Source: Methylocystis sp. IM3
GTDB lineage: Bacteria > Pseudomonadota > Alphaproteobacteria > Rhizobiales > Beijerinckiaceae
NCBI RefSeq assembly: GCF_038070105.1
Contig: NZ_JBBPBZ010000004.1
Span: 1 to 64,000, forward strand
DNA: 64,000 nucleotides
Direction: 5' to 3'
In this document: in pieces, positions 18,262 through 34,289 of the stretch
Numbering within the stretch: the first letter of the stretch is position 1
How the letters are laid out: every line of letters begins with the position of its first letter
Notes under the pieces: generated by a model
The model's database searches: none
What the model was told of the DNA's origin: nothing
What the model saw: only the letters and a program-made list of their open reading frames with translations
Translations under genes and position numbers: made by a program

Positions 18262-19518
18262 TTAAATTCTAGCGCCCGAGATAGCGCCCCACGTCGTGCG
18301 CCAGCGGGTTTTCACGAATATCAGACCCAGGAGCCCTAGCAACGCCAAACAACCGAAGAAGAGGAAACCCGCGGTAAAGCCACCAGTCGCGCCTTTGGAA
18401 TAAGCGAGCGATTTAGCCAAGAAAAACCCGCCCAAACCGCCGGCTGCGCCGACGAGACCCGTCATCGCGCCGATCTCCTTGCGGAACCGTTGCGGCAGCA
18501 GCTGGAACACCGCGCCATTTCCCATGCCCAGGCAAAGAACGCCAAGCGAAAACAAGCCAACAGCCGTAAATGCGGTCGTCGGGAGCTGAGTCAGGCTCCA
18601 ACCGCCCATCTTCGGAGCCGGTCCCTCAGGTAGGAAGGCGATCGCAAAATAGCAGACTGAGACCGCCAAGAAGAGAACGGAAAGGGTCCTAACGCCGCCG
18701 ATCCGATCAGCGATGTAGCCACCCACCGGCCTGAAGCCCGAACCGAAGGCGACAATCAGTGCGACGACGAGCCCGGCAGCGACGCCGGTCGCGTGATAGT
18801 GCGTGGTAAAATAAAGCGGCAACGCGGAAGCCAAGCCGACGAAGCCGCCGAAAGTGATGAAATAGAAAAACATGAACCAACGACTGTCGGAGTCGCGAAG
18901 CATCTTTCCGTAATCAGACGTGCTGATTGTCGACTTTGCTCCCGGCGCGTCTTTGGCGGCGAGCGCATAAATTGCAAACACGACCGCCATCAGCACAAAC
19001 AGCACGCCGTAAACCGTTCGCCACCCATAGGTTTCCGCGATCCAGGGCGCAAAGACCGTATCCAGCACCACGCCCATGTTTCCAGCGCCAGCGATGCCCA
19101 TCACAACCCCCTGATATTGGGGCGGATACCACCGGCCCACCTGAGGCAAGGCGACGGCGAAGGAGGCGCCGGCAAGACCAAGCGCGATTCCAAATAGTAC
19201 AATCGCGGCAGGGCTAGACAGTCCGAGGACACTGACCATGGACACGGCAAACATGACGATCGCCTGTGCGGCGATGCCGGCCTTTTTCGAGCCGATAATG
19301 TCGGCGAGGAGGCCAAGTGGCACGCGGAAAAAGGCGCCGCCGAGCACCGGGATAGCGACAAGTGAAAGCTTATCTTCCACCGAAACGCCCATCCCGTTTG
19401 TGATATAAATCATGAGCGGACCTAAAGAAACCCAAGCCATGAAGCTGATGTCGAAATACAGAAAGGCGGCTAGAAGGGTTGGCCAATGGCCGACTTTCCG
19501 GAACTCTTCGAGTTTCAT
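18262..19518 (-). CDS. narK: Nitrate/nitrite transporter of the NarK/NasA (NNP) family
   Basis: This 418-residue major-facilitator protein has 12 hydrophobic segments. The nitrate signature is present in the fifth segment (GIAGAGNMGVVLDTVFAPWI), with the partner motif GNGAVFQLLPQRFRKEIGAM in the second half and Arg residues in FFRVPLGLLAD and GFRPVGGYIADRIGG that bind the anion in this family. It lies between nasA (102 bp upstream) and the kinase/phosphatase gene (16 bp downstream), so it is the inner-membrane uptake step of the assimilation pathway. Confidence 0.95.
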   Translation of the reverse strand: MKLEEFRKVGHWPTLLAAFLYFDISFMAWVSLGPLMIYITNGMGVSVEDKLSLVAIPVLGGAFFRVPLGLLADIIGSKKAGIAAQAIVMFAVSMVSVLGLSSPAAIVLFGIALGLAGASFAVALPQVGRWYPPQYQGVVMGIAGAGNMGVVLDTVFAPWIAETYGWRTVYGVLFVLMAVVFAIYALAAKDAPGAKSTISTSDYGKMLRDSDSRWFMFFYFITFGGFVGLASALPLYFTTHYHATGVAAGLVVALIVAFGSGFRPVGGYIADRIGGVRTLSVLFLAVSVCYFAIAFLPEGPAPKMGGWSLTQLPTTAFTAVGLFSLGVLCLGMGNGAVFQLLPQRFRKEIGAMTGLVGAAGGLGGFFLAKSLAYSKGATGGFTAGFLFFGCLALLGLLGLIFVKTRWRTTWGAISGARI

Positions 19519-19619
19519 TTTCGATCCTCTTTGGTTGTGTCCGCGGTGATTACGAAAACATCAGGTGGGCGACGTCTAGAGTCTCGGCAGGCCCCGCTTG
19601 GAGAGCTCCCATGCGACCG

Positions 19620-22241
19620 TTAGGACCGAGCGGCTGCATCGAGTATCCGCTTGATCTCCGGTAAACACGAGCCGCAGCTGGTTCCAGCTTTACATGCGGC
19701 GCCAATGTCCGCCGCCGAACGGCGCCCCTGTTGCGCTAACGTTTCGATGCGCTTGACGCCGACGCCAAAGCACGCGCAGACGAGCGCTCCCTCATCGTCA
19801 ATCGCCTTCCCGACGTGGCCCGAAAGCAGTTGCTCCAGTTGCGAGTCCCAACTAGGCGCGATCGGCGCAATGGCCCAAATGAACTCAGCGCGCGCCTCGC
19901 GGAAGGCCGCGCCTCGGTAGGAGGCGGTCGCCTCGTCGATAAACTCGACGAGATCATTTCCTGAAAAATGCTGGCGGATGGTCGCCAACCAGTCAGGGTC
20001 CGAGAGATCCGTCGCAACCCGATAACCGTAGCCATTTGCAACGGCGATTCTCGCCCACCAAACCCCTTTGTCAAACGCCACGGCCCTACGCGACAACAGG
20101 AAACCCGCTCGTGCGAACGAGGCTGGCGCAATCGCTGCCGGCGTCGCCTTGGCCTCTGGCTGTCCGGAATATGGATCGAGGAAAGATCCGACAAGCGCGC
20201 CGACACGCGCCTGCGCGGCGGTTTCGTCTGTCCAATGGATTGGAGCGAAGATGCTCCCCTCCGGCTGCCTGTCTGTCGTCACGGCGCGCAGGGTGCAGAC
20301 GCCGTATCTTGTTGTGATCTGAACGAACCCGCCATCTTCTATGCCAAAGCGCTTTGCTTCACTTGGATTGATTTCGACAAAGGGTTCGGGAAGATGTCGG
20401 GCAAGTCTGGGAGACGCCCCGGTTCGTGTCATTGTATGCCATTGGTCACGAATCCGACCCGTATTCAACCGAAGCGGGAAACTCGGTGTGAGACGAGTCG
20501 CTAAAGCAGGTCGCGAGGGAGCGACAAACACCGCTTTTCGGTCATCCGTGAAGAACCGCCCGCTTTCGAAAAGTCGCAGGGTTCCCGTCGTTTCTCCGCT
20601 CCGAACTGGCCATTGCGTGGGCTCCAACGCGTCGTATTCGGTGTCACTGAGGTCTGAGAAACCGCCGATGTCAAAATCGCGCGTCCCCTCGTTTTCGAAG
20701 GAAGACAATGCTGCGTGTTCACGAAACACATCCGCCGCCGACGCAAAATCGAACCCTTCGTATCCCATACGCTTTGCGAGATCCGAGAAAATTTCCCAAT
20801 CAGCGCGAGCTGCACCTGGGGCCGGATTGAACGACCGTTGCCGAGAGATTCTTCGTTCTGAATTTGTGACTGTTCCGTTCTTTTCGCCCCACGCCTGAGC
20901 GGGAAGGAGAAAGTGTGGGCCTCTGTTGATCGTATCGTTGGAGGCCACATTGTCTGAGACAACAAACAGCTCAAGTTTTCTGAGCGCGGCACGGGCTGCG
21001 TCAGCATTTGGCAGAGACGCCGCCGGATTTGTCCCCGCCACCCAAAGCGCTTTGATCTCGCCTCGCGCGATAGCGTCGAACATCTGTACGGCTTTGTGGC
21101 CCTCCTTCACCGCCATATGGGGAGCGTTCCAGAAGCGGCGGACACGATCTATGCTGTCAACGTCAAAACCCATATGGGCAGCGAGACTATTCGCAAGTCC
21201 GCCGACCTCTCGTCCGCCCATCGCATTCGGCTGGCCGGTCAGGGACAACGGCGAAGCCCCTACTTTGCCGATTCTTCCGGTTGCGAGGTGACAATTGATG
21301 ATCGCGTTTACTTTGTCCGTTCCTTGAGCCGACTGATTGACGCCCTGCGAAAAGGCGGTGACCGTTCGCGGGGTCTTCGCGAATAATTCGAAAAGGGAAA
21401 TGAGGTCGGTTTCGCGCAAGCCCGTCGCGAGCGCGGTTTTCTCGATAGACGGCGCGATTGCGCGCGCGGCGTCGAGAGCGCCCGCCAACCCGCGCGTATG
21501 AGAAAGAATAAAATCGGCGTCGAATGCGCCAAATTTATCGAGATAAACCAGCAAGCCGCTAAATAGCGCTTGATCGCTGCCTGGCCTAATCTCAAGGAAG
21601 AGATCCGCGCTCTCCGCTGTTGCGGTCCGCCTCGTATCGATCACGATGATCTTGGCGCCGCGCTCGGCCTTGTTCTGGATTACGCGTTGGAAGAGAACCG
21701 GGTGACACCAGGCGGCGTTGGATCCGACGAGAATAATGAGGTCCGCTTGATCGAGGTCTTCGTAGCAGCCCGGCACGGTATCTGAGCCAAAGGCGCGCTT
21801 GTGTCCGGCGACGGTTGAGGCCATGCACAGTCTTGAATTGGTGTCGACGTTAGACGAGCCTATGAAGCCTTTCATGAGCTTGTTGGCGACATAATAGTCT
21901 TCGGTCAGAAGCTGGCCGGAAAGGTAAAAGGCGACGGCGTTCGGGCCATGACAGCGGATGATTTCCTGAAATCGCGCTGCGATACCATCCAAGGCGGCGC
22001 CCCAGCTTACCCGCCTATAGGCTTCGTTATGCTGCTTTTGCATTGGGAAAAGCAGGCGGCCTTCCAGACTGAGCGTTTCGTCGAGCGCAGATCCCTTGGA
22101 GCAAAGGCGGCCGAAATTGGCTGGATGGTTTGGATCCCCCCGAACTCGCACGGGCTCGCTCTTGTGATCCGAGGACACGAGAACGCCGCAGCCGACGCCG
22201 CAGTATGGACAGGTTGTCCGCGTTTCTGTGATCGCTTCCAT
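19620..22241 (-). CDS. nasA: Assimilatory nitrate reductase catalytic subunit
   Basis: The protein of about 873 residues reduces nitrate to nitrite in the cytoplasm. It has an N-terminal [4Fe-4S] motif (CPYCGVGCGVLV with a fourth Cys in GRLCSKG), a molybdenum-bis-MGD core with the Mo-ligand Cys in RLCMASTVAGHKRAFGSDTV, the MGD-binding GQPNAMGGREVGG, and a C-terminal BFD-like [2Fe-2S] domain (CACFGVGV, then CKAGTSCGSCLPEIKRIL). I chose ATG 22241 because it has AGGAGA at five bases and lies just ahead of the cluster; a TTG overlapping the preceding stop is the alternative. Electrons probably come from the neighbouring flavoprotein. Confidence 0.97.
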   Translation of the reverse strand: MEAITETRTTCPYCGVGCGVLVSSDHKSEPVRVRGDPNHPANFGRLCSKGSALDETLSLEGRLLFPMQKQHNEAYRRVSWGAALDGIAARFQEIIRCHGPNAVAFYLSGQLLTEDYYVANKLMKGFIGSSNVDTNSRLCMASTVAGHKRAFGSDTVPGCYEDLDQADLIILVGSNAAWCHPVLFQRVIQNKAERGAKIIVIDTRRTATAESADLFLEIRPGSDQALFSGLLVYLDKFGAFDADFILSHTRGLAGALDAARAIAPSIEKTALATGLRETDLISLFELFAKTPRTVTAFSQGVNQSAQGTDKVNAIINCHLATGRIGKVGASPLSLTGQPNAMGGREVGGLANSLAAHMGFDVDSIDRVRRFWNAPHMAVKEGHKAVQMFDAIARGEIKALWVAGTNPAASLPNADAARAALRKLELFVVSDNVASNDTINRGPHFLLPAQAWGEKNGTVTNSERRISRQRSFNPAPGAARADWEIFSDLAKRMGYEGFDFASAADVFREHAALSSFENEGTRDFDIGGFSDLSDTEYDALEPTQWPVRSGETTGTLRLFESGRFFTDDRKAVFVAPSRPALATRLTPSFPLRLNTGRIRDQWHTMTRTGASPRLARHLPEPFVEINPSEAKRFGIEDGGFVQITTRYGVCTLRAVTTDRQPEGSIFAPIHWTDETAAQARVGALVGSFLDPYSGQPEAKATPAAIAPASFARAGFLLSRRAVAFDKGVWWARIAVANGYGYRVATDLSDPDWLATIRQHFSGNDLVEFIDEATASYRGAAFREARAEFIWAIAPIAPSWDSQLEQLLSGHVGKAIDDEGALVCACFGVGVKRIETLAQQGRRSAADIGAACKAGTSCGSCLPEIKRILDAAARS

Positions 22242-22306
22242 TCGTTCTCCTGGAGAAGCCATCCCACGCGTCGTCACAGCAAGAACATCCTCGAACATGT
22301 CGGGCC

Positions 22307-23896
22307 TCAATAGACGTCCTGTTGGTAACGACCGGCCTTCTTCAACTGCGCGACGAAGGCAATCGCTTCGTCGACGCTACGCGCGCCAAACTCAGCGACA
22401 ATGTCGACGAGCGCGCGCTCGACGTCCTTGGCCATGCGCTGGGCGTCGCCGCAGACATAGAAATGCGCGCCCTCGGCAAGCCATGCCCATAATTCGCGGC
22501 CGGACTGGCGCATGCGGTCCTGCACGTAGAATTTCTCCGCTCCGTCCCGCGACCAGGCGAGCGACAGGCGCGTCAGCAGACCGGTCGCTTTCATTGTCTC
22601 GAATTCGTCAGCGTAGAAAAAATCGCAGGCCGAGCGTTGGTGACCGAAGAAAAGCCAGTTGGCTCCCTTCGCGCCGCTCGCCGCCCGTTCCTGAAGAAAG
22701 GCGCGGAACGGCGCAACGCCCGTCCCCGGACCGACCATGATAATCGGCAATGCGGGGTTCTCCGGAAGCGCGAAGCCATGCGCCTTCTGGACATAGGCGC
22801 GCAAGGATTCTGCCGGCGCGACACGTTCGGCGAGAAAGGTCGAGGCGACGCCAAGGCGCTTGCGCTTGCCGATAACATAGCGCACCGCGTCGACCGTGAG
22901 CGATAGGCGTCCTGGCGCCGCCTTCGGCGAGGAGGAAATCGAATAGAGCCGGGGCGCCAAGGGGTCTAGCGCCTCCACGAAGGCCTCGGGGTGCGGACGC
23001 GCACTGGGGAATTTGCGAAGAACCGCGAGCACGTCGAGCGTCGCGGCGTCGCCGTCCGGGTCCTCGCCTTGCGCGAGGCGGCGCGCCTTGTCGCGATCGG
23101 CCCCGCCGGTGATGAAGGAGAGGAGTTCAAAGAGCGCGTCAGGCGCGGGCGAGAGCGACAAGTCATCGAGCAGGAGGTCACGCAGCGTTTTGCCGCGCAC
23201 CGCCGTGACATGGGACGCCCCGAGCGTTGCGATGATCTGGTCAACAAGACCGAGGTCGTTCCGGACGAAGATGCCGAAACTGTCGCCAGCCGCGTAGTCT
23301 AACTGGCTTTCCGAGACGTCGAAGTCGATGTGCCAGGTTTCCTTCGCCGATCCCTCGCCATTGAGCCGTCGCCGGGAGAGAAACGTGACCGACGCAGGAT
23401 TATCTCGCGAATATCCCCGGCCGCCGATCGGCGCCGGCTCCGACTTCTCGGTCGACGCGCCGGTCGGTGCGGGCGCCGTCTCCAGGTCCGCAGCGAGCGT
23501 CTTGAGCATGCGCGCGGTTTCCTTGCCGCCCGGGGCGCAAAGATTGAGCCGCGCCTCCTTGCGTGTGGCGACCGCGTCCGCGTAGCTCTCGCAACTATAG
23601 CCGCATTGGCCGCAATCCTGCTGCGCCATCGCCGCCATCATCCTTCGGCGCAGCGGTCGGCCTTCAGCGAGCTTCATGCGCGCATCGAGAGCCAGCGTCT
23701 GGTCGTGCCAGGGCGCCTCACCGTCATCGGAATCAGTAATTACATGAACGGCGCCACTGGGCTCGAATGCAATTGGCGTGGCGCCGCTATCGACGGACAG
23801 GTAGGCCGCGAAGAATCCGTTGAGCCAGCTCCGCTGCTCGGGGGAGAAGGGCGCCGCTTCGGGGATGAGGCTCGACGGACGCGTCATGTGGGTCAT
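22307..23896 (-). CDS. CysJ-like flavoprotein reductase of the nas operon
   Basis: This 529-residue protein has an N-terminal Cys motif (QQDCGQCGYSCESYADAV and a fourth Cys in LNLCAPGG) suited to an Fe-S cluster, then a CysJ-type FAD-binding insert domain (RLYSISSSPKAAPGRLSLTV) and an NADPH domain (GPGTGVAPFRAFLQERAASG, then FYVCGDAQRMAKDVERALVD). There is no flavodoxin domain. Similar proteins, often named sulfite reductase alpha, sit in alphaproteobacterial nitrate clusters. Its position between nirA (ATGA overlap) and nasA suggests it passes NADPH electrons to one or both reductases. That role is inferred. Confidence 0.9.
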   Translation of the reverse strand: MTHMTRPSSLIPEAAPFSPEQRSWLNGFFAAYLSVDSGATPIAFEPSGAVHVITDSDDGEAPWHDQTLALDARMKLAEGRPLRRRMMAAMAQQDCGQCGYSCESYADAVATRKEARLNLCAPGGKETARMLKTLAADLETAPAPTGASTEKSEPAPIGGRGYSRDNPASVTFLSRRRLNGEGSAKETWHIDFDVSESQLDYAAGDSFGIFVRNDLGLVDQIIATLGASHVTAVRGKTLRDLLLDDLSLSPAPDALFELLSFITGGADRDKARRLAQGEDPDGDAATLDVLAVLRKFPSARPHPEAFVEALDPLAPRLYSISSSPKAAPGRLSLTVDAVRYVIGKRKRLGVASTFLAERVAPAESLRAYVQKAHGFALPENPALPIIMVGPGTGVAPFRAFLQERAASGAKGANWLFFGHQRSACDFFYADEFETMKATGLLTRLSLAWSRDGAEKFYVQDRMRQSGRELWAWLAEGAHFYVCGDAQRMAKDVERALVDIVAEFGARSVDEAIAFVAQLKKAGRYQQDVY

Positions 23897-25641
23897 TGTA
23901 AAATCTCCGACTCCGCCAGACGACGGATCGTTGCCGCGTCACAGCGCCGCGCAAAGGCGGCAAAATCTTCGGTGTTGCTTTCGCGACATCGGCGATAGAC
24001 GCGCAAGATAGCCGCCACCGTCTCCGGTGCGTCCTCTGCGCGTACGTTTTGGAAGAGTTCGCGCGCGATCGCCGCCTCGTTCCCGAAGCTGCCGCCGACG
24101 AGAATGTGATAACCTTCGACCGCTTCGCCCTCGTCGTTGATCGGAACACGCGCGCCAATGAGGCCGATGTCGCCGATATAATGCTGCGCGCAGGAATGAT
24201 GGCAGCCGGTCAAGTGGATATTGACGGGGGTATCCATCGGCGCCGTCGCCTCGCAGTGATCGGCGATCAGCGCCGCATGGCGTTTCGTGTCGGCCGCGGC
24301 AAAACGACAACCAAATTTCCCCGTGCAGGCGACGAGGCCAGCGCGGATCGGCGAAGCCTTTGTCGATAGGCCCAGAGCCTCGACTGCGGCGATCGCGTCC
24401 GCAACCCGTGCGTCCGGCACGCCCGTAAGGAGCAAATTCTGCCAAACGGTGAGGCGCAGGCCGCCGTCGCCATGATCGCGCGCGGCGCGCGCGAGGCCGC
24501 GCGCCTCTTCTGAAGTCAGGCGTCCGAGCGGCAGAGCGACTCCAATCCAGTTGAGGCCCGGCTGTTTTTGCGGATGCACGCCGATGTGCGCGGCGCGATC
24601 CTGACGCGGACGCGGGGCAACGGCTTCCATCGCAATGTGGACAAGTTTCCGGCCGAGTTTCTCCTCGACCGCCTGGAGAAATTTCTCGAAGCCCCAGGCG
24701 TCGAGAACATATTTGAGCCGCGCCTTGGCGCGGTCAGTGCGGTCGCCGTGTTCGATGAAAACGCGCAGGATCGCGTCCGCGACCTCCACCGTCTCGTCCG
24801 GATGAACAATAACTCCCGTATCGCGAGCAAAATCCTTATGGCCCGTGATGCCCCCCAAGGCGAGACGAAACCACACACCCGGCGCAACGCCGTGGCCGTC
24901 GCGCACCTCGACCGCCTGAAATCCGATGTCGTTTGTGTCCTCCAGCGCGCCGACCAATCCGGCGCCGTCGAAGGCTATGTTGAATTTTCGCGGCAGGCCA
25001 TAGAGCGAACGGTCATTTAAAATGTGGTGATGCATCGCGCGGGCGTAAGGCCGCGTGTCTATCAACTCCTGGGGATCGACGCCGGCCGTCGGCGTGCCGG
25101 TAACGTTGCGGATATTGTCGGCGCCCGCGCCCTTGCTCCAGAGCCCGAGGTCTTGCACCGCCTCGACGATCTCAACCGCATTCTTCGGCGCGATCTCGCG
25201 GATCTGAAGATTGGCGCGCGTTGTCGCGTGCAGATAGCCGCCGCCATGCAATTCCGCGAGATCGGCAAGACCCGCGAACTGCCAATGGGTGAGGACGCCG
25301 TTAGGAATGCGCAACCGCAGCATATAGGCGTCCTGCGCCGGCGCGACATAGAAGAGACCGTGGTAGCGCCAACGAAAATTGTCGGCGGGTTTTGGCGACA
25401 CGTTTTCCTTCGTTTGCGCGACGAGGCGCGGATAGGCGTCGAAGGGATGGGTCTCGCGCTTCCATTTCTCCTGATCGGTCAGCTTTCGGCCACTGGCAAT
25501 GACCTGATCTTGCGCGACAAGATGCACCGCGTCGGGGCCAGTCGGCTGGGCGACAGGCGTTGATCTCATCTCGCGCGCGGAAAGTCCCGCAACGAACCCT
25601 TCGAGATAGCGCTTCTGATCGACCGTGAAATCCGCTGTCAT
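23893..25641 (-). CDS. nirA: Ferredoxin-type nitrite reductase (siroheme, [4Fe-4S])
   Basis: The protein of about 582 residues reduces nitrite to ammonium with six electrons. It has duplicated ferrite-reductase-like domains, two siroheme/4Fe-4S half motifs (CTGKFGCRFAAADTKRHA and TGCHHSCAQHYIGDIGLIGA), and the substrate-binding LHATTRANLQIREI and GVDPQELIDTRPYA segments. ATG 25641 is preferred over GTG 25650. It is now the first intact gene behind leader A, because a NirB-like gene in between has been reduced to a fragment. Its stop overlaps the start of the flavoprotein gene. Confidence 0.95.
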   Translation of the reverse strand: MTADFTVDQKRYLEGFVAGLSAREMRSTPVAQPTGPDAVHLVAQDQVIASGRKLTDQEKWKRETHPFDAYPRLVAQTKENVSPKPADNFRWRYHGLFYVAPAQDAYMLRLRIPNGVLTHWQFAGLADLAELHGGGYLHATTRANLQIREIAPKNAVEIVEAVQDLGLWSKGAGADNIRNVTGTPTAGVDPQELIDTRPYARAMHHHILNDRSLYGLPRKFNIAFDGAGLVGALEDTNDIGFQAVEVRDGHGVAPGVWFRLALGGITGHKDFARDTGVIVHPDETVEVADAILRVFIEHGDRTDRAKARLKYVLDAWGFEKFLQAVEEKLGRKLVHIAMEAVAPRPRQDRAAHIGVHPQKQPGLNWIGVALPLGRLTSEEARGLARAARDHGDGGLRLTVWQNLLLTGVPDARVADAIAAVEALGLSTKASPIRAGLVACTGKFGCRFAAADTKRHAALIADHCEATAPMDTPVNIHLTGCHHSCAQHYIGDIGLIGARVPINDEGEAVEGYHILVGGSFGNEAAIARELFQNVRAEDAPETVAAILRVYRRCRESNTEDFAAFARRCDAATIRRLAESEILQ

Positions 25642-25679
25642 TTTGTGCACCCTTTTTTCGTCACTCCGCCGAACCTCGC

Positions 25680-25812
25680 AGTTGTAGGCAAGTCGCGCCT
25701 CCTCGCCGATTACGCAAATCTAATAGCGGTCGGGAGCCGCGAAATTCAGCTTATCAGCTAGGCGTGTGGAAGCCATGCCGCCCCCCACAACAACAAGTTT
25801 CTCGTTGTGCAT
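25680..25812 (-). pseudogene. NirB-type FAD/NAD(P) domain fragment
   Basis: From ATG 25812 the frame reads MHNEKLVVVGGGMASTRLAD and soon meets TAG at 25722-25720, then continues in frame as ICVIGEEARLAYN before running into the nirA start. This is the N-terminal dinucleotide-binding motif of the NAD(P)H-nitrite reductase large subunit or a related FAD-dependent oxidoreductase. Only about 45 codons survive, with a nonsense codon inside. It sits directly behind leader A, so it was once the first gene of this operon. Confidence 0.8.
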
Positions 25813-25913
25813 TGACCCCTAGTCCTCACATGGACCTATCGTGATCGGCTCTGAACAATTCGACCTCGCGACACTGTTCGCTTCGCCTTGTTCACGCAGC
25901 TACGACGGAACAG

Positions 25914-25994
25914 AAAAAAGCCGCGCCCAAAATCGCCCGCGTTGACGGACGTTTCGGGACAGCGGCGTTGCTGTTTGAGCCCCTCGTTGGGCTC
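25914..25994 (-). promoter_or_regulatory. ANTAR-type dual-hexaloop leader and terminator (leader A, nirA operon)
   Basis: On the minus strand, hairpin P1 is GAGCCC-AACGAG-GGGCTC (25994-25977) and hairpin P2 is ACAGC-AACGCC-GCTGT (25974-25959). Both have six-base loops with A at position 1 and G at position 4, the signature of ANTAR-protein RNA targets. The 3' half of P2 (GCCGC) also pairs with GCGGC at 25924-25920 to form a terminator followed by six U (25919-25914), so P2 and the terminator exclude each other. NasT binding would stabilise P1/P2 and allow read-through into the nitrite and nitrate reductase genes. Confidence 0.85.
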
Positions 25995-26028
25995 CGCGCC
26001 CTTCGGCGCGCTATTTCAAAAACGACCT

Positions 26029-26044
26029 TGCAAGACCGGCGCCA
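26029..26044 (-). promoter_or_regulatory. Sigma-54-type promoter before leader A
   Basis: The minus strand reads TGGCGCCGGTCTTGCA, with GG and GC exactly ten bases apart and one mismatch to the TGGCAC-N5-TTGCA consensus. Transcription would start near 26018, about 24 bases before hairpin P1. It predicts NtrC-type, nitrogen-limitation control of the operon. The assignment rests on sequence and position. Confidence 0.75.
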
Positions 26045-26118
26045 GTCGACAAACGCAGGAGCTTCCAGTGAAATGTGAAGGCTTTAGAGACGCTGGTTTC
26101 GTCCTTCTTGACGCATGC

Positions 26119-27320
26119 TCACGTGTTCAGCACGTTCCGCTGCATCTCTATGCACAGTGCGTGCAGTTTGGCTTCACGCTCCCGATCCAATGTGGAAGGA
26201 TCTAGATAAGCTTCGAGCTCGCAAGCATTGAACGCGACGCCAGCAAAAGCGCTTATCTTGCTCGTTTTTCCGGTTACGCTTCCGCCTGTGGCTTGATCAA
26301 AATATGCGTCCTCATATACGGAGCGAGCTGTCTGCATCGCTTCCAGTGAAAACGGCGCTTGTCCCCACCGGACCATTTGCGCGTAAAGCCACGCCGCCTG
26401 AACGGGATCCGGCCTGCCGGATGCCGCATTGCCAAAGATGAGATAGTCCTTTGTCACCCCCGCGGATCCCACGCGGCCCTCGAACGTGCGCTCCAAGGCT
26501 TGGGCGCCAGCACCGATTCGATCGGGACCCGAAAGCATAGCGAGCGCCTCTGACCGGTTTTCAGGCGACGCGATAAAATCCGCCGCTTTGAGGCAGGCTC
26601 GAATGAGCCCCACAACTGTCTCGGGCTCGTTTTTCGCGAGCTCGGCGCTGATCGCCAAGGTCTTCTCGGGCGCAGGATTGAAAATGGCGCCGCCGGGATG
26701 CAGAATGATCCTCACGCCGTGTATCTCGGCCACTGTATTCCAGGGCGCTCCGACACAGAATCCGTCGACCTGCCCTTTCGCCAGATTCTCGACCATATAA
26801 GGTGGCGGTAAGACAATGAGACGCACATCCCTGTCGGGATCAAGTCCGCCTTCCGCCATCCAGAAGCGCAACTGATAATTATGTGTCGAGAAGGGAAACG
26901 TCATGCCGAAAGTGAACGGCTCCTCACCTCGGCTTTCGCGTAAGTCGATGACGGCTTTCAACGCTCTTATGCTCACGCGGGGATCGGACAGATCGCCTTG
27001 CGCCACGCTCGAGAGCGTTTCGTATAGCTTCGGCGAAACGGTGATGGCGTTGCCATTCATCGCTAGATTGAGGGTAGCGATCGTCGGTCTCTTCATCTGC
27101 CTCAGGCCAAGCGTCGCGGCGATCGCCATTGGAGCGAGCAAATGCGCCGCTTGGATTGTCCAATCGAAAGCCTGTCACGTATGTTGGACCAGGAGACCTC
27201 CTGCACCAGTTCAACATCCAAGCCCTCTTCCGCCGCAAAGCCCTTGTCAACTGCGACCAGAAGGGGCGCTGCGTCAACAAGTGGAATGAAGCCGATCCTG
27301 AGCTTGCGATCAGCATTCAT
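26119..27320 (-). pseudogene. nasS: Second nasS, frameshifted (NrtA-like nitrate sensor)
   Basis: From ATG 27320 the frame gives MNADRKLRIGFIPLVDAAPL and QEVSWSNIRDRLSIGQ, then shifts at about 27150 into AAHLLAPMAIAATLGLRQMK and on through FPFSTHNYQLRFWMAEGGLD to the C-terminus. It is a paralogue of the intact nasS at 29.9-31.1 kb. The break replaces the HYD segment after SIG. The last 25 residues (STLDREREAKLHALC and following) differ from the intact copy and match the junction seen in the third remnant at 33.7 kb. The frame also joins the upstream nasT remnant without a stop. Confidence 0.85.
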
Positions 27321-27892
27321 CTGAAAATCTCCCAAGCAGCTATCAACAGATTTTGCAACTTCGTTCATTTTCACGCTTTCGCACATCGCTCGGCCGCGCA
27401 TCAAATTATACGCCTCCGATTCCGTCAGACCCTTTGCTTGCATCAAGATTGTCTTGGCTCGATCGACGACCTTTCGCTCTTCGAGGTCCGACCTCGCTTT
27501 CTCCAATTCGCTTTGTAGATTTGCAAAGGCGTTGAAGCGCGATATGCAGACGTCGAGGATGGACTTGATGCGTTCCTTTCTAAGTCCATCGACAATGTAC
27601 GCGGAAACCCCTGCGTCGACCGACGCCTGAATGAACCTGGCGTCCGCCTTGTCGACAAACATGGCGATCGGGCGTCGGACGGCGCGGCTTACTTAAAACA
27701 TTTGTTCGAGTTCGTCCCGCGACGGACTTCCCAGATCGATCAAAATGACGTCGGGGTCGATCGAGTAGATGCGACTGAGCAAATCAGTTTTTTCTCGGCA
27801 AGATAGACAATGTCGGTAAAGCCTGCCTCCCGCAACCCTTCTTCCAAGATCGCGAATCGGATAGAGCTTTGATCGACAATAACGATTTTCAC
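27321..27892 (-). pseudogene. nasT: Second nasT (ANTAR regulator), frameshift plus nonsense
   Basis: From GTG 27892 the frame reads VKIVIVDQSSIRFAILEEGL and is homologous to the intact NasT. It breaks in a run of six A near 27785 (GAGAAAAAACTG), resumes as SRIYSIDPDVILIDLGSPSR, and then meets TAA at 27695-27693 where the intact copy has Gln (EQMFQVSRAV). The ANTAR domain after it (ERKVVDRAKTILMQAKGL) is open but has lost its stop and runs into nasS. At least two lesions make a functional product unlikely. Confidence 0.85.
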
Positions 27893-28104
27893 CGCATCCG
27901 CTCCGCCGCAAGCCGCGAGTGCTTCCAAGTGGCTTTTGCGCGATTTTGCGCCGGCGGAGACGTGTGGACCGCCAGTGCGCTGAAAGACAAGGGTTGCTCG
28001 TCAAGAAGACGATCAACGGTTTTTACGACGCCGACCGCGCCGAGATAGAGGGCGACAAGAAGAACGAGAAGTTCCAAAAACGAAATGATTAGGGCGCCAC
28101 GCAT
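27889..28104 (-). CDS. Small membrane protein coupled to the broken nasT
   Basis: This 71-residue frame from ATG 28104 (MRGALIISFLELLVLLVALY) has one strong membrane helix followed by a polar tail. Its TGA overlaps the GTG of the nasT remnant, so the two were translationally coupled. No counterpart precedes the intact nasT. I do not recognise a family. The start is uncertain because a longer frame begins at 28224. Confidence 0.5.
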   Translation of the reverse strand: MRGALIISFLELLVLLVALYLGAVGVVKTVDRLLDEQPLSFSALAVHTSPPAQNRAKATWKHSRLAAERMR

Positions 28105-28246
28105 GCGCAAGAAGAGCGCGTCGATCGTATCAATGTGGCGTAACTTCCAGCTGCAATGGCTCCTCGCGCTCCCGATCAACATCGCGAACGTCCGCCTCTG
28201 TTTGGAGAAAAAATGAGCGTCCACCAGTCGCGGCGGACGCGTCGTT

Positions 28247-29521
28247 TCAGATTTTCACCTTGAGCTGCATGCCGGCCTGCCAATTCTTCATGATCTGCGG
28301 ACCGTTCAGATTCTGGTAGACGGGCAACCCCGCTTCAACGCCTAACGTCCAATTCTCATAACCGATGAATTTCCCGCTGACCGTGCCGCCGCCAAAGAGC
28401 TCGACTCTCTGGCCTCCGAAAAAAAGCGGGTTGGAGGGCGCTGCGGGGCCGCGGATCTCGGGGTCCCAACCGCGGATCGCGCCCTGCATTGTCGCATTTA
28501 CTCTAAACGTCGTGGTGAGGCCGGGTGTCCATGTGTACCCGGCCCAGCCGTTTAGCTCGTGAAGGTCGCCCCACATATAGCCCTTTGGATTGAGCGTATA
28601 CCCGCCCCACGGCTTTAATTCGGGTATGTTGGCCCAGGTGTAGCCCTCCGGATTAGGCCCAAGCGGAAAGCGCCCGCGATAGGAGACGCCCCATGACCAC
28701 GCACCCAGATTGCCCGCATAGACGATCCCCGGCATGATGTCGTAGGTGCCGGTTCCTAGCTGCATTCCGTAAAAGCCGCGGATGTTCTGAACGGTTCCGT
28801 TTGGGAGAACGAAATTATCGAGTGTCGCGCGGTTCGATCCGGTGGGGAAGGAGAAGCCGAGAGAAACCTGGATGCGGTTGATGTCGTCCTGGTAGGCGCG
28901 ATAGACGCCCGAAAGATTGAAATCCGTTAGGCTTGAAGTATCGGGGTAATTTCTAGCGAGCGGCTGGATGCCGCTCGTGCCCTTGAACACAAGCGCGTCA
29001 AGACTTTTTTCAATCATGCCGGCATTCAGAACGACGCATAAGTCCTTGGTGACTCCGTAGTTGAGGCCAACGATCTGGGTTCGGACAGCAATGTTCTGAG
29101 GAATAATCCGAACCGGTTGCCGCGGATTGAGAAAAAAGGGAACCGTCGAGACAATATATTCATTCCAAACGGTCCGCGTCCCCATCTTCATACCCGACAG
29201 ATTGGAGAAGGTCGGCGTGATTGAGAGAACGAGTTTTCCTGGCGCCGGAATGTCAAGACCAAAAACGCCGATCGGCCCGGGAGGCGGAGCTGGCGGCGGC
29301 AGTGCGCTGGCAAGGGGCGGCGGTGGCGGCGCGTTTAGCTTGCTCGCCGCTACATTGGCCTTCAACGGCGATCCCGTCGTTCGTGCGGCGGCCGCCCGAG
29401 GTCCCGACTTTTTCGAAATCTCTCCCGCTTGCGCGCTTAAAGCGTGCAGCAAAAGAAAGATCGCTCCTAAGAGAGTCGAAGCGAAAATTTGCCCATGTCT
29501 CTGATGATGCCTCGTTTCCAT
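28247..29521 (-). CDS. Outer-membrane channel protein of the nas cluster
   Basis: The 424-residue protein starts at ATG 29521; a longer frame upstream merely runs through leader B. A signal peptide (METRHHQRHGQIFASTLLGA, cleavage after SAQA) is followed by a Pro-rich linker (residues about 60-95) and a beta-barrel rich in alternating aromatic strands (LVLSITPTFSNL, IQVSLGFSFPTGSNRA, GTYDIMPGIVYAGNLGAWSW, ending KNWQAGMQLKVKI). It resembles the outer-membrane family labelled phenol-degradation MetA/transporter. Control by its own sigma-54 promoter and ANTAR leader ties it to nitrate or nitrite assimilation, probably as an outer-membrane uptake channel. That role is inferred. Confidence 0.8.
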   Translation of the reverse strand: METRHHQRHGQIFASTLLGAIFLLLHALSAQAGEISKKSGPRAAAARTTGSPLKANVAASKLNAPPPPPLASALPPPAPPPGPIGVFGLDIPAPGKLVLSITPTFSNLSGMKMGTRTVWNEYIVSTVPFFLNPRQPVRIIPQNIAVRTQIVGLNYGVTKDLCVVLNAGMIEKSLDALVFKGTSGIQPLARNYPDTSSLTDFNLSGVYRAYQDDINRIQVSLGFSFPTGSNRATLDNFVLPNGTVQNIRGFYGMQLGTGTYDIMPGIVYAGNLGAWSWGVSYRGRFPLGPNPEGYTWANIPELKPWGGYTLNPKGYMWGDLHELNGWAGYTWTPGLTTTFRVNATMQGAIRGWDPEIRGPAAPSNPLFFGGQRVELFGGGTVSGKFIGYENWTLGVEAGLPVYQNLNGPQIMKNWQAGMQLKVKI

Positions 29522-29570
29522 GTCACCCTGCCATTCGCGCTTCGCTAGCGCAATCGCGGGAGCCAAATAC

Positions 29571-29655
29571 AAAAAAGCCGCTGCCCAACCCCTCTCGCAT
29601 GAGTCGCGAGATGGCTGGAACAGCGGCGTTGCTGCGTCTGACCCGTCGTTGAGTC
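29571..29655 (-). promoter_or_regulatory. ANTAR-type dual-hexaloop leader and terminator (leader B, channel gene)
   Basis: On the minus strand P1 is GACTC-AACGAC-GGGTC (29655-29640) and P2 is CAGC-AACGCC-GCTG (29634-29621). Both loops are hexamers with A1 and G4, and P2 has the same loop as in leader A. P2 shares GCCGCTG with the 5' arm of a strong terminator whose 3' arm (CAGCGGC, 29583-29577) is followed by six U (29576-29571). An inner hairpin CTCGC/GCGAG fills the terminator loop. The structure predicts NasT-dependent antitermination of the channel gene. Confidence 0.85.
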
Positions 29656-29686
29656 GACCACGCATCGCGTGGTTTGCGACAGGAAT

Positions 29687-29702
29687 TGCAAGTATCAGGC
29701 CA
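29687..29702 (-). promoter_or_regulatory. Sigma-54-type promoter before leader B
   Basis: The minus strand reads TGGCCTGATACTTGCA, with GG-N10-GC spacing and an intact TTGCA half; the -24 half is TGGCCT instead of TGGCAC. A start near 29676 would put P1 about 20 bases into the transcript, matching the geometry of leader A. Confidence 0.65.
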
Positions 29703-29894
29703 CGGCGTCGCGATGGAGGAAATGGCTTCAGTTCAACGAGAAAGATCAGACCGATGTCGATTTCCGCGACATTTTGCGCTCAAAATCTAAGCGCTGCTCT
29801 GTCCAAGCATTGGGCAGAATGTCCGCCATCGGATCTTCAGGGATCGGACAGTTTTGGCTTGGAGCACGAGGCCGCTCATCCGAGCATACGACGA

Positions 29895-31061
29895 TCAGCG
29901 GACAACCGGATCCTTCGCGGCGATCGGAAATGCGCCGATATAGGTCTCCATGGCGTCTGCGTCGAAGGCAGGGCCGGCGAAGGCCGAAATGTGGGCGGGC
30001 GGGACCCCCGGGTTGGGTCCGATCTCCCGATCGAAAAAAGCTGGATTGAATACGCCTTCAGCAATGCGCTGGGCCTCGGCTGACGTACGCGCCTGGCCCC
30101 AACGTGCCATCTGGGCGAAAAGCCATGCGGCCTGATAAGGATCGGGACGTCCCGAAATTCGGTCGCCAAAAATCAGGTAATCTTTATTCGCCGTCGAAGC
30201 GGTCGCGCACCAGCGCCCGTCGAGGATGTGGTGAAGCGTCTTCGCGTCGATGCCGACACGGTCCGAACGGGCCAGGATCGCTGCGACTTCGGCCCGATTG
30301 TCTGGCGCTGCGACGAAATCGGCGGCCTTCAGGCAGGCGCGGATCAGCGCCGAGACCAGCCAGGGGTCCCTATCCGCAGTGCTTTCGCGTATCGCCAGCG
30401 TCTTTTCGGGAGCTGGGTTAAAAATCGCACATCCAGGGTGCAGAACCACGCCTTTGGCGGTCTCAGCCGCAACGGCGTTCCAGGGCGCTCCGACGCAAAA
30501 GCCGTCGATCTGCCCGTTGGCGAGGTTTTCGGCCATGAAGGGCGGCGGCAGCACGACAAGACGCAAATCCTTGTCAGGGTCGATGCCGCCTTGAGCCATC
30601 CAATAGCGCAACTGGTAATTATGCACGGAAAACGGGAAGGTCATTGCGAAGGTCAACGGCTCGGCGCCGCGTTTTTCGTCTTCGCTGACGACTGCGCGCA
30701 GCGCGCGGGCGCTGATCAAGGGATCGGCGATGTCGCCATCCGCGGCCCCGAGCAGACGGGCGTTAAGCGACGGGGAGACAGTGATGGCGTTGCCGTTCGT
30801 CGCCAAATTAAGCGTCGCGATAAGCCGAACCTTAACCTGCCTGAGACCGAGGGTTGCCGCGATGGACATCGGCGAGAGAAGATGGGCAGCGTCATAATGG
30901 CCGATCGCGAGACGATCGCGTATGTTGGACCAGGAGACCTCGCGCACCAACGTCACATCGAGGCCCTCAGCGGCGGCGAAACCTTTATCGACGGCGACAA
31001 AGACGATCGCGGCGTCGACGAGCGGCATGAACCCAATTCTAACGGGACGGAGCGACGTCAT
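29895..31061 (-). CDS. nasS: Nitrate/nitrite-sensing regulator NasS
   Basis: This 388-residue periplasmic-binding-like protein related to NrtA has no signal peptide, so it is cytoplasmic. It shows MTSLRPVRIGFMPLVDAAIV, EVSWSNIRDRLAIGHYDAAH, LATNGNAITVS, TFPFSVHNYQLRYWMAQGGI and QIDGFCVGAPWNAVA, the conserved segments around the nitrate pocket. Its ATG overlaps the nasT stop (ATGA, 31061-31058), giving coupled synthesis in the stoichiometric order known for NasT-NasS. By analogy with Azotobacter and Paracoccus, NasS holds NasT inactive until nitrate or nitrite binds. Confidence 0.93.
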   Translation of the reverse strand: MTSLRPVRIGFMPLVDAAIVFVAVDKGFAAAEGLDVTLVREVSWSNIRDRLAIGHYDAAHLLSPMSIAATLGLRQVKVRLIATLNLATNGNAITVSPSLNARLLGAADGDIADPLISARALRAVVSEDEKRGAEPLTFAMTFPFSVHNYQLRYWMAQGGIDPDKDLRLVVLPPPFMAENLANGQIDGFCVGAPWNAVAAETAKGVVLHPGCAIFNPAPEKTLAIRESTADRDPWLVSALIRACLKAADFVAAPDNRAEVAAILARSDRVGIDAKTLHHILDGRWCATASTANKDYLIFGDRISGRPDPYQAAWLFAQMARWGQARTSAEAQRIAEGVFNPAFFDREIGPNPGVPPAHISAFAGPAFDADAMETYIGAFPIAAKDPVVR

Positions 31062-31630
31062 TTGAGCAACTCGGATGCGGTGATGACGGACTGAGCGATC
31101 TCTGCGATTTTCTTGCTCTCGCGCATGGCGACCTTGCGCAGCAGCCGATAGGCTTCTTCTTCCGACAGATTCTTCGTCTTCATAAGGATGCCCTTGGCTC
31201 GATCGATGGTTTTGCGCTCCTGAAGGTCCGATTTGGCGCGCGATAGTTCGCTTTGAAGCTTGGCGAATGCGTTGAAGCGGGACACGCAAAGATCAACAAT
31301 CGACTTGATCCGTTCTTTCTTCAGCCCATCGACGATATAGGCCGACACGCCAGCGTCGACGGACGCCTGTATCGAGGCGGCGTCCGCTTGATCGACAAAC
31401 ATAGCGACCGGCCGCCGGACAGCGCGACTAACCTGGAACATCTGCTCCAGCTCGTCGCGAGAGGGGCTTTCGAGATTGATGAGAATGACTTCGGGGTCGA
31501 TGGCGTAAATGCGTTTTAGGAGATTTTGCTTCTCGAAGATGCGCTCGACATTTTTGAAGCCTGCCTCTCGTAAACCCTCTTCAAGGATTGCGGCGCGGAT
31601 CGCGCTTTCATCAACAATAACGATTTTCAC
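31058..31630 (-). CDS. nasT: ANTAR antitermination regulator NasT
   Basis: The 190-residue protein has an N-terminal receiver-like domain (MKIVIVDESAIRAAILEEGL) and a C-terminal ANTAR RNA-binding domain (LQERKTIDRAKGILMKTKNL followed by SEEEAYRLLRKVAMRES). The receiver position normally holding the phosphoacceptor Asp reads ILINLES, that is Asn, consistent with control by NasS rather than by phosphorylation. Its targets are very probably the two dual-hexaloop leaders at 25.9 and 29.6 kb. A sigma-54-like sequence lies 38 bases upstream of the start. Confidence 0.95.
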   Translation of the reverse strand: MKIVIVDESAIRAAILEEGLREAGFKNVERIFEKQNLLKRIYAIDPEVILINLESPSRDELEQMFQVSRAVRRPVAMFVDQADAASIQASVDAGVSAYIVDGLKKERIKSIVDLCVSRFNAFAKLQSELSRAKSDLQERKTIDRAKGILMKTKNLSEEEAYRLLRKVAMRESKKIAEIAQSVITASELLK

Positions 31631-31667
31631 GAGTTTACGCTCGAGCTACGGATTTGGCATTCTGCAT

Positions 31668-31683
31668 TGCAAGAAGTGAGCCG
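31668..31683 (-). promoter_or_regulatory. Sigma-54-like promoter of nasT-nasS
   Basis: The minus strand reads CGGCTCACTTCTTGCA, with GG-N10-GC spacing and an intact TTGCA but two mismatches in the -24 half. It sits 38 bases upstream of the nasT ATG. It is weaker than the two leader promoters, but the same position and 3' half recur. Confidence 0.5.
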
Positions 31684-31818
31684 TTGGCCTACCGCTTGAA
31701 CATGACAGGAATGTTAAGCTTCTGTTTAGATGCGCAAAGGAAGCATGCTTGCTTCCTGCCGCGTGATTCCCTCCGACGGCCCAACTCTTCTTACGCCTCG
31801 ATCTCTCTCTCATCGGAC

Positions 31819-33539
31819 GGTTCTTCCTCACTTTCTGTTGCGCCCTTGATCGACTGGGGTAGAGACCATAGCTTGGCCGCGTGCAAAGAAAATCGGTTTG
31901 GCCCTCGGGCAGGGCATTCGTATTTTAGACGCCAAGCAATCCGGCAGCCACTGGCTGATTTCGGCGACGGCCATCGGGTCTGGTGTCTGTCCAGACTGCG
32001 GGAAACGCTCGACGCGCCGATACGGCTGGCATGAGCGCCATCTCCAGGATCTGCCGGCGCAAGGCGCCCCTGTCGCTGTAAAGCTTCGCCTCCAGCGCTG
32101 GCAATGTCGAAACGAAAGCTGCGAGCGTAAGACGTTCACCGCGCAACTGGCCGAGGTCGCGGCGCCTCGAGCGCGCCGCACCGAGCGGGCGACCGAAATC
32201 ATTTATCTTCTCGGCCATGGCGTGGGCGGGCGTCCGGGAGAGCGCCTGATCAAGCGAATTGGCATGCCGACCAGCGATGACACGATCCTGCGCTGTCTCA
32301 AACGACGGGTAAAGGCGCGCGGCTCGGAGGAGACGGCGCGCGTCGTAGGCGTCGATGATTGGGCTTGGCGCAAGGGCTCGACTTACGCGACCATCATCGT
32401 GGACTTGGAGCGCCGGGAGGTGCTCGATCTATTTCCCGAGCGCGCCGCAGGCATGACCGCGGAGTGGCTCAAGCGGCATCCCAGCGTCGAGATCATCAGC
32501 CGCGATCGCTGCGGTTCGTTCGCCCAAGGGGCCCACGAAGGCGCGCCGCAGGCGCGGCAAATCGCCGACCGCTTTCATATCCTCCAGAACCTACGGGAGG
32601 CGGTTCAGGCGCAACTGGGCCGTGCGGCAGGGTTTTCCGCACGTCCATTGTTGCCGGCGGACGGCGAAGAGGTTGCCAGCGTGCGGGATAAGCACGGCGG
32701 CGCTGAGCATCGCCGTCTCACCAGAGTGGCGAACGAGCGTTCAAGGCAAGCGGTTTTCGATCAGGTTCGGGCGCTCCACAAGGAGGGTCGAAATGTGATG
32801 GACATCGCGCGACAGACGGGGTTCGATCGCCGCACGGTCGCGAAATGGATCCGAGCCGAAGCGCCTCCCAAGCGGAGCGCTGTAGCGCCAAAGATGACAT
32901 CCCCTCGGCATTTCGAAGATTATTTATCACGCCGCTGGTCGGAAGGTTGCGTGCGCGGTCGTCGCCTGTTCCAGGAAATCAAAGCGCGCGGTTACACTGG
33001 CAGTTTCTCAAATCTCGAACGGCTGCTGGCGAAATGGCGCAATCCGAAACGCAAAACTGCAAGGACCGCACCGATTGTCCCAAGGCCGCAGCCACTGGAT
33101 CCGGCGACCGGACGTTCGATTTCGCCGATCATCGCCGCCGCGCTTTGCATCAAGCCGCGTGGGCTGTTGACCGTCAATCAAGCTGCAAAAGTCGATGCCA
33201 TGAAAAAGGACTGGCCAGAGTTCGCGGCGATGCGTCGGCTCGCCATGCGATTCAGGGGCCTGTTCAAAAGCAAGAGCGCCAGCAAGCTTGGCGCTTGGCT
33301 GAGAGACGCCCAGAAATCGGGCTTGTACGCGATGCAACGTTTCGCTCGCACGGCGCAGAGAGACATCGACGCGGTGAGAAATGCGATCACTGAGCCGTGG
33401 AGCAACGGCCAGACGGAAGGACAAATCAATCGTTTGAAGGCGCTCAAACGAACGATGTATGGCCGAGCGGGGCCAGAACTCCTCCGTGCGCGCTTGCTTC
33501 CTGCGTAGCGGCCACTGCAACAGAAAGTGAGGAAGACCC
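31819..33539 (+). mobile_element. ISL3-family insertion sequence
   Basis: Terminal inverted repeats of 20 bp are perfect (TCTTCCTCACTTTCTGTTGC at 31822-31841 and its complement at 33517-33536) and extend to about 23 bp with one mismatch. The element holds one transposase gene. No matching 8-bp target duplication is seen, because the right flank is an IS1380 fragment and the left flank is different DNA, so a deletion followed the insertion. Confidence 0.85.
31898..33508 (+). CDS. ISL3-family transposase
   Basis: The 536-residue protein is complete. It has an N-terminal zinc-finger-like region (GVCPDCGKRSTRRYGWHERH, then CRNESCERK), the DDE core starting at VVGVDDWAWRKGSTYATIIV, a second Asp in IISRDRCGSFAQGA, an inserted helix-turn-helix (VMDIARQTGFDRRTVAKWIR) and the final Glu in WSNGQTEGQINRLKALKRTM. 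The start is placed at 31898 inside the left terminal repeat region. The transposase should be active in principle. Confidence 0.92.
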   Translation: MALGQGIRILDAKQSGSHWLISATAIGSGVCPDCGKRSTRRYGWHERHLQDLPAQGAPVAVKLRLQRWQCRNESCERKTFTAQLAEVAAPRARRTERATEIIYLLGHGVGGRPGERLIKRIGMPTSDDTILRCLKRRVKARGSEETARVVGVDDWAWRKGSTYATIIVDLERREVLDLFPERAAGMTAEWLKRHPSVEIISRDRCGSFAQGAHEGAPQARQIADRFHILQNLREAVQAQLGRAAGFSARPLLPADGEEVASVRDKHGGAEHRRLTRVANERSRQAVFDQVRALHKEGRNVMDIARQTGFDRRTVAKWIRAEAPPKRSAVAPKMTSPRHFEDYLSRRWSEGCVRGRRLFQEIKARGYTGSFSNLERLLAKWRNPKRKTARTAPIVPRPQPLDPATGRSISPIIAAALCIKPRGLLTVNQAAKVDAMKKDWPEFAAMRRLAMRFRGLFKSKSASKLGAWLRDAQKSGLYAMQRFARTAQRDIDAVRNAITEPWSNGQTEGQINRLKALKRTMYGRAGPELLRARLLPA

Positions 33540-33540
33540 G

Positions 33541-33735
33541 GCAATCTGCCACAGGCGAGCTTGAACGCGGGATCGACACGCAGGCTGTCCAGATCGTCGG
33601 CGTCCTCGTAGCCGCAGGCGATGGCGAAGGCGCGCGCGCGGATCATGTCGGCGAGCGTGTGCGTGATCCGGGACGGATCGCGCCGATCCGGAAATGCGCG
33701 GGCAAGCCTATCGGCGATCCCCAGACGGCACAGTG
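33541..33735 (-). pseudogene. IS1380-family transposase fragment
   Basis: The frame LGIADRLARAFPDRRDPSRI, then ADMIRARAFAIACGYEDADD and LRVDPAFKLACGRLP, is unmistakable IS1380 transposase (residues about 40-105 of a full protein). It is cut on one side by the ISL3 element and on the other by fusion to a decayed nasS. The DDE core is absent. Confidence 0.8.
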
Positions 33736-34135
33736 AGTGAAGTTTGGCTTCACGCTCCCGATCCAATGCGGAAACATCTGAGGTAAGCTTCGTTCCCGGA
33801 AGCATTGTACTTGACGCCAAAAAAACGCCAATAGCGATTCATTTCTCGGTTACGCTTCCGCCAGACCCCGCGATCAAAACATGCGTCCTCATATACGGAG
33901 CGGGGCAATCTGCGGCGCTTCCATTTGCGTGTGCGTAAAACCGCGCCCTTTGAACGGGGTTCCGGCTTGCCGGATGCCGCACCGCTAGGAATGATGCCCC
34001 CGGATCACGCGGCCCTCGAAGTTGCGCTGCAAGACTTTGGCGTCGGATCCGATTCGATGGGGACACAAAAGCATAGCGAACGCCTCTTGGCCCCAAATAG
34101 CCCGAATAAACAATTCCTGGCATGATGTCGTAGGT
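33736..34135 (-). pseudogene. Third nas-module remnant (channel-nasS chimera)
   Basis: Bases 33737-34085 align in order with 26150-26560 of the broken nasS, including shared strings such as TTACGCTTCCGCC, ATGCGTCCTCATATACGGAG and CTTGCCGGATGCCGCA, but with many small deletions. Bases 34090-34135 instead match the channel gene at 28700-28760 (GGCATGATGTCGTAGGTG; minus-strand MPGIVYSGYLGP). The remnant is therefore a deletion fusion of a further channel gene with a further nasS. It ends at the same LDREREAKLH sequence that closes the second nasS. Confidence 0.75.
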
Positions 34136-34222
34136 GTCGAGAAAATGCGGCTGGTTGAAAGAGAAAGGCTCGTCGCATAATTGCTCGGCTATGGGAGACG
34201 CCGAACGCGGGCAAGGTCAAAT

Positions 34223-34264
34223 GGCCATTGTTCGGTTGCAATATATCACATGCGAACAATGGCC
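34223..34264 (-). terminator. Long hairpin behind the double-barrel gene
   Basis: Perfect 12-bp arms (GGCCATTGTTCG at 34223-34234 and its complement at 34253-34264) flank an 18-base loop, starting 26 bases after the stop of the outer-membrane gene. The U-run is weak (ATTT), so it may act as a processing or stability hairpin rather than as a terminator. Confidence 0.5.
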
Positions 34265-34289
34265 GCGTTCACGTATCGTCTTTAGACGC

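Follow-up and report, generated by a model that had tools for sequence, protein, structure and literature searches.

The window analysed here comprises positions 1–64,000 of contig C4 from the 4.9 Mb genome of Methylocystis sp. IM3, and this contig is probably a large plasmid because it carries a repABC-type S-element and a ctRNA. On the minus strand, intact nasT and nasS genes are followed by a gene for an outer-membrane beta-barrel protein, which forms a unit with a promoter of its own, and further along by a second, broken nasT-nasS copy and a set of genes assigned to nitrate and nitrite reduction and transport (Table 1). Another intact nasT is encoded elsewhere in the genome, at C2:318130. 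The molybdoenzyme is the presumed assimilatory nitrate reductase, although the NCBIfam matches shown for it (Fdh-alpha, NasC and others) all fall below their cut-offs.

Table 1. Features of the barrel leader and of the surrounding nitrate genes in the window.
Feature	Position	Strand	Basis
Sigma-54-type promoter TGGCCTGATACTTGCA (GG-N10-GC)	29687..29702	-	sequence
Extra 5' hairpin accacgc-gat-gcgtggt, 5' of P1	29657..29673	-	sequence
ANTAR hairpin P1, gactc-AACGAC-gggtc, loop A1 and G4	29640..29655	-	sequence, pattern scan
ANTAR hairpin P2, gcagc-AACGCC-gctgt, loop A1 and G4	29620..29635	-	sequence, pattern scan
Intrinsic terminator hairpin, T6 tail ending at 29571	29571..29627	-	
Gene for an outer-membrane beta-barrel protein of 424 aa whose N-terminal helix would suit a signal peptide	28247..29521	-	
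nasT (ANTAR antiterminator), intact	31058..31630	-	PF03861, E 2e-20
nasS (NMT1_2-type, presumed nitrate sensor), intact	29895..31061	-	PF13379, E 4e-70
Second nasT-nasS copy, disrupted by frameshifts and by an in-frame TAA stop	26119..27892	-	
Other ANTAR leader, before nirA, loops AACGAG / AACGCC	25912..25996	-	
TGGCGCCGGTCTTGCA, just upstream of the nirA leader	26029-26044		
nirA-type nitrite reductase	23893..25650	-	NF007126, above its cut-off
Flavin reductase (sulfite reductase alpha-like)	22307..23896	-	NF004859, above its cut-off
Molybdoenzyme, presumed assimilatory nitrate reductase	19620..22310	-	PF00384 and Fer2_BFD
NarK-like MFS carrier	18262..19560	-	best match TIGR00886, below its cut-off

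The sequence-only reading had placed two ANTAR hairpins, a U-tailed terminator and a GG-N10-GC promoter in front of the barrel gene, and all of these were recovered on the minus strand between 29702 and 29571. Both the leader sequence and its folding show that the 5' strand of the terminator is the 3' strand of P2, and thus P2 and the terminator are mutually exclusive. The terminator ends 50 nt before the barrel ATG (29521), and none of 200 dinucleotide shuffles folds as well as the leader RNA (z -3.47). The locus combines what is expected of a NasT-type target leader: two hairpins with A1/G4 hexaloops, a terminator that P2 excludes and an ANTAR protein in the same genome; a -24/-12 element of the form TGGY-N-TTGC, as expected for sigma-54, precedes it. 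No Rfam family matched the leader, either across the whole window at the gathering threshold or at E ≤ 5 in 22000–36500.

We defined a strict pattern (two A1/G4 hexaloops and a U-run, with the opening bases of the P2 3' strand recurring ahead of the U-run), which matched the window only once, at the barrel leader, and never in 60 first-order resamples. A looser pattern also recovered the nirA leader, together with one overlapping match inside it and one additional weak match on the plus strand at 12831. The nirA leader fails the strict pattern. Both leaders exist as had been proposed, but they are not the only ones: a covariance model (R1), for which 15 barrel leaders and two others (17 in all) served as input, detected four in the source genome with E below 1e-11. 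Two of these precede the window barrel and nirA; the other two lie on C2, one before the nrtA gene of another nas cluster and one before a barrel paralog (C2:2982403). The last leader and its barrel stand alone, in surroundings that look flagellar by eye.

When 19 homologous loci were scanned without a model, the barrel was immediately preceded by an ANTAR pair with a U-run in 14. Of the remaining five, L011 and L023 are true misses, and the other three offer no more than 302 nt of sequence 5' of the match. The only other match in these loci was the nirA leader of L007. GG-N10-GC lies upstream of all 18 leaders read out (window, L002 and the 19 homologous loci). The 39 Methylocystis genomes contain 66 barrel-family genes (fragments joined) and 55 R1 matches (E up to 6e-6), and 32 of the barrels have a leader within 600 nt 5'. 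A barrel family occurring mostly away from nas genes had been named as grounds for doubting the nitrate reading; the division is about half and half, with 31 barrels nasT-linked, 34 not, and one undeterminable (G029:C89, about 70%, without a leader, where the contig ends inside the gene). The leader precedes every one of the 28 nasT-linked barrels with assembled upstream DNA, the other three (G027:C9, G028:C99, G038:C115) starting at a contig end. The same genome as the undeterminable case also has a nasT-linked barrel that is split and has a leader (G029:C26) and a fairly close barrel (61%) that has none (G029:C77, which is L011). Conversely, 28 of the 32 leader-bearing barrels are nasT-linked, the exceptions being the orphan of the source genome (G000), its twin in G018, a stop-broken copy in G009 and a copy in G024 that is followed by an apparently broken nasS. 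The copy on the second contig of G009 (L104), a leader with a barrel gene interrupted by a stop, is a decaying stand-alone unit. In most Methylocystis loci read, the order is leader, barrel, nasT, nasS and further genes, and the barrel is the first gene of operons that either have a NarK-like carrier as their last gene or include nrtABC.

Seven of the 55 R1 matches are divergent leader-like elements in seven Methylocystis genomes (L120, L121, L124–L128), with a U-first P1 loop, a P2 loop that is mostly AAAGCC and mostly a short T-run. They precede genes that by eye encode an OFA-like 573-aa MFS protein or a homospermidine-synthase-like protein. We did not accept them as NasT leaders given the U-first loop and, in most, the T4 tail; they might instead be linked to a different ANTAR protein or be of another kind.

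For the fine structure we compared 36 barrel leaders (of 40 known; G018:C11, G019, G029:C26 and G033 were not included) with 36 other leaders. The A1/G4 loop was present in P1 of 36/36 and P2 of 34/36 barrel leaders (P2 of L176 and L178 was not parsed), and in 27/36 and 35/36, respectively, of the others, a conservation that is partly by construction since rows were picked by R1 and the parser favours A-first loops. Among 26 distinct barrel-leader P1 hairpins, six have the fourth pair changed on both sides from G-C to A-T, and sliding the partner by one base either way leaves no paired change. The strict promoter motif TGGY-N7-9-TTGC lies upstream of 33/36 barrel leaders and 22/36 other leaders, compared to 1.1% of random 79-nt stretches; the loose form GG-N10-GC occurs before 36/36 barrel leaders but also in 46% of such stretches. 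In many leaders a further hairpin, whose sequence varies, is located between the -12 element and P1, outside the two-hairpin module. Compared with 100 mononucleotide shuffles per leader, folding of the region before P1 reached p ≤ 0.05 in nine of 36 barrel and nine of 36 other leaders (72 in total).

The sequence-only reading had suggested a search for the same pairing in other alphaproteobacteria, and it was found in one further genus. Within a 248-genome family sample, nine genomes of genus g42 (presumably Methylosinus) have a leader, which precedes a barrel in eight. Two of these barrels head a nasTS operon, and six stand alone, the nas query genes being absent from their 13-kb stretches, so that nasT linkage of leader-bearing barrels is 2/8 here and 28/32 in Methylocystis. 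In five barrel-less clusters (L094, its same-species twin L129, and L180–L182), nrtA has a leader and nasT has none. The leader thus goes with the barrel and not merely with the nas operon, given the six stand-alone units and the leader of barrel-less clusters lying before nrtA instead of nasT. We consider that the stand-alone units argue for, rather than against, shared regulation.

Beyond Methylocystis and Methylosinus, R1 matched 56 sites, 22 of them within the family and 34 elsewhere in the order; 48 (20 and 28) were examined by taking the best-scoring query within 1.3 kb of the leader as the downstream gene. In none of the 48 was this gene the barrel. The gene was nrtA in 39 cases, a NarK-type MFS carrier in seven, a NasS-like gene in one, and unassigned in one; among the NarK-type cases two are only 24–26% identical, one is a partial match 1.2 kb away and one is the source of the query. 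Because 39 of 48 precede nrtA and seven a NarK-type carrier, the leader, as judged from comparative sequence, is a marker of nitrate uptake genes outside the two genera. NasT was detected in 41 of 45 leader genomes (in G211 by a short 38% match only) compared to 131 of 248 overall (Fisher p 4e-9). It was not found in the other four, including the stretches around their leaders; nasS lies upstream of the leader in three of these (in G263 1.7 kb away, at the contig start), two of the stretches stop at a contig end, and 6 kb read in G239 contained no nasT. A Pfam search for ANTAR returned nothing in these four genomes and likewise nothing in 14 control genomes, and thus carries no weight here. 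The barrel occurs in 34 of the 248 genomes, such that most NasT-bearing relatives do without it, and nitrate entry therefore needs no such barrel in general.

The window barrel matched no Pfam and no NCBIfam family. Its relatives carry the misleading database name "alpha-amylase", which we correct here: there is no amylase domain. PF13557 was not matched at E ≤ 0.01 by any of 65 barrel alignment members or by the window protein; it was found in a distant Ruegeria relative and weakly (E 0.014) in one Methylocystis relative. A sequence search of the PDB returned a single chain (E 1.2). The predicted fold is a barrel of about 12 strands, the number seen in COG4313/PF13557 channels, and is nearest to the COG4313 channel. 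The barrel tree included 66 of 68 extracted barrels, after removal of L104 (broken by a stop) and of a duplicate of L142, and did not include several barrels on short contigs (e.g., L011). The barrel domain has a mean net charge of +5.4 in the 35 leader-bearing rows, compared to +2.8 in the 31 without a leader (p 0.01, uncorrected for kinship), a difference that we kept out of the evidence. Some paralogs have other neighbors. In Methylosinus sp. C49 (L193, 3774–5990), a barrel paralog and an OMP_b-brl domain form one protein directly before feoB, and leaderless paralogs in five loci (L027, L133, L134, L135 and L136) have an NMT1-type ABC substrate-binding gene at a distance of about 2 kb, with an ORF that looks regulator-like by eye in between in four of them.

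Leader anatomy, its conservation, its coupling to the barrel and the predicted fold come from this analysis, and they lead us to the following model. A transcript would start at the sigma-54 promoter, we infer under nitrogen limitation and via NtrC. Without nitrate, NasS would hold NasT, the terminator would form and the barrel would not be made. With nitrate or nitrite, NasT would be freed and bind P1-P2, P2 would then tie up the terminator's strand, and transcription could continue into the barrel gene. Dissociation of NasS-NasT and leader binding are known from other bacteria, Paracoccus (PMC3795266) and Bradyrhizobium (PMC6759348). The proposed control of the barrel by nitrate and NasT is strongly supported by the comparison, including the leader at all 28 nasT-linked barrels with upstream DNA, and we consider it very likely that NasT regulates the barrel. 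In the best explanation that we can offer from regulation and context, the barrel would be an outer-membrane entry path for nitrate or nitrite that feeds NarK or NrtABC, nitrate itself being the presumed substrate. This part of the earlier claim gains from the leader marking nrtA and NarK-type genes elsewhere and loses from the likeness to COG4313 and from the half of the family without a nasT link. On balance, we judge the reading as a whole, a NasT-dependent antitermination leader serving a nitrate/nitrite entry route, to be probable.

The barrel could be under NasT control and yet have another cargo, such as a molecule of hydrophobic or amphipathic nature, something exported (e.g., nitrite) or a general solute required when nitrate serves as nitrogen source. 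The fold points this way, as the solved COG4313-like member is thought to carry hydrophobics (PMC4493636, in the part available), as do the family members before feoB or near an NMT1-type gene and the leader-bearing member among flagellar-looking genes; however, the leader class nearly always precedes nitrate import genes outside the two genera, and the barrel heads operons with a NarK-like carrier or nrtABC. We regard another cargo as rather unlikely, while giving it real weight.

The leader might alternatively autoregulate nasT-nasS or the whole operon, with the barrel an incidental first gene. This would fit the gene order of most Methylocystis loci, but in the window the barrel unit comes after nasTS with its own promoter, leader and barrel are alone in six Methylosinus genomes and at C2:2982403 of the source genome, and a barrel-less nasT lacks the leader in five of five loci (two being twins). 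Autoregulation as the leader's main reason is largely refuted by the stand-alone units and appears improbable to us. Finally, a terminator lies about 270–325 nt after nasS, and the element might simply be the terminator of that gene, or a chance resemblance. Against both are the absence of strict matches in the 60 resamples, conservation with pair changes on both sides, and an association with the barrel instead of nasS; comparison and resampling together rule these origins out, and we attach virtually no weight to them. Returning to the nitrate/nitrite entry route, a wider version can be put forward only tentatively: type II methanotrophs might possess a dedicated outer-membrane nitrate channel among COG4313-like paralogs, each of which would pair with its own inner-membrane importer (NarK/NrtABC in the case of nitrate, FeoB in that of ferrous iron, and an NMT1-type importer), with a portable NasT leader that stays with the nitrate paralog even outside the nas operon.

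In nitrate assimilation, passage across the outer membrane is usually ascribed to porins without further specification. In the loci studied, one barrel family, and thereby a named candidate gene, is singled out by an RNA signature that elsewhere marks nitrate import genes, which would add an outer-membrane protein to the predicted NasT regulon. The mechanism itself has precedent in NasST systems; judging by the literature searched, this outer-membrane target is novel. Among the literature matches listed, covering titles and the starts of abstracts outside supplements and most subscription journals, there was no NasT-controlled porin, and nothing was found that joins ANTAR, nitrate assimilation, porin and leader, or on "nitrate porin" and similar phrases.

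The closest known systems are those of Paracoccus denitrificans (PMC3795266) and Bradyrhizobium diazoefficiens (PMC6759348), in which NasS-NasT antitermination acts on nas, nirA and nos genes and which share with the barrel leader a NasT-type ANTAR protein, a NasS-type sensor and hairpins before a terminator. Targets with leader hairpins described there are nasA, nosR, nirA, a coxS-like gene, narK and bjgb; unlike the barrel here, no outer-membrane target with a leader is mentioned in the available portions of these papers, in which the outer membrane protein blr1311 rises in a nasT mutant. The general ANTAR dual-hairpin RNA of EutV (PMC3369931) likewise has two short stems, A1/G4 hexaloops and an adjoining intrinsic terminator; the barrel leader differs in its sigma-54-type promoter, its often present extra 5' hairpin and its outer-membrane target, "porin" and "outer membrane" being absent from the main text of that paper. 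The COG4313 channel Pput2725 (PDB 4rl8, PMC4493636) let ions and certain small molecules through in vitro, but, in the part available, its authors judge a hydrophilic cargo unlikely and propose hydrophobic substrates; the main text does not contain "nitrate," and the window barrel differs in having no PF13557 match. OpdQ of Pseudomonas aeruginosa (PMC4694141) resembles our reading of the barrel in being a nitrate-regulated porin gene, but is, per the title, under the NarXL two-component system and not an RNA leader. In an ntrC mutant of Burkholderia cenocepacia (PMC5491218, on the NtrC regulon), nasT declines along with several genes for outer-membrane porins, with neither a leader nor a nitrate link mentioned for these porins in the portion available.

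Several minor observations concern the genes around the barrel. The close relative locus L007 has one nasT-nasS pair between the barrel and the nirA leader, with each gene matched unbroken. Between the nirA leader and nirA, at about 25650–25820 on the minus strand of the window, there is by eye an apparent FAD-dependent oxidoreductase remnant with a stop, and in Methylocystis sp. MJC1 (L191) an annotated FAD-dependent oxidoreductase gene precedes nirA. On the other side, 2.7 kb beyond nasT, a leaderless barrel paralog fused to an OMP_b-brl domain (34290–36221, minus strand) is separated from nasT by an ORF at 31898–33508 that appears transposase-like by eye.
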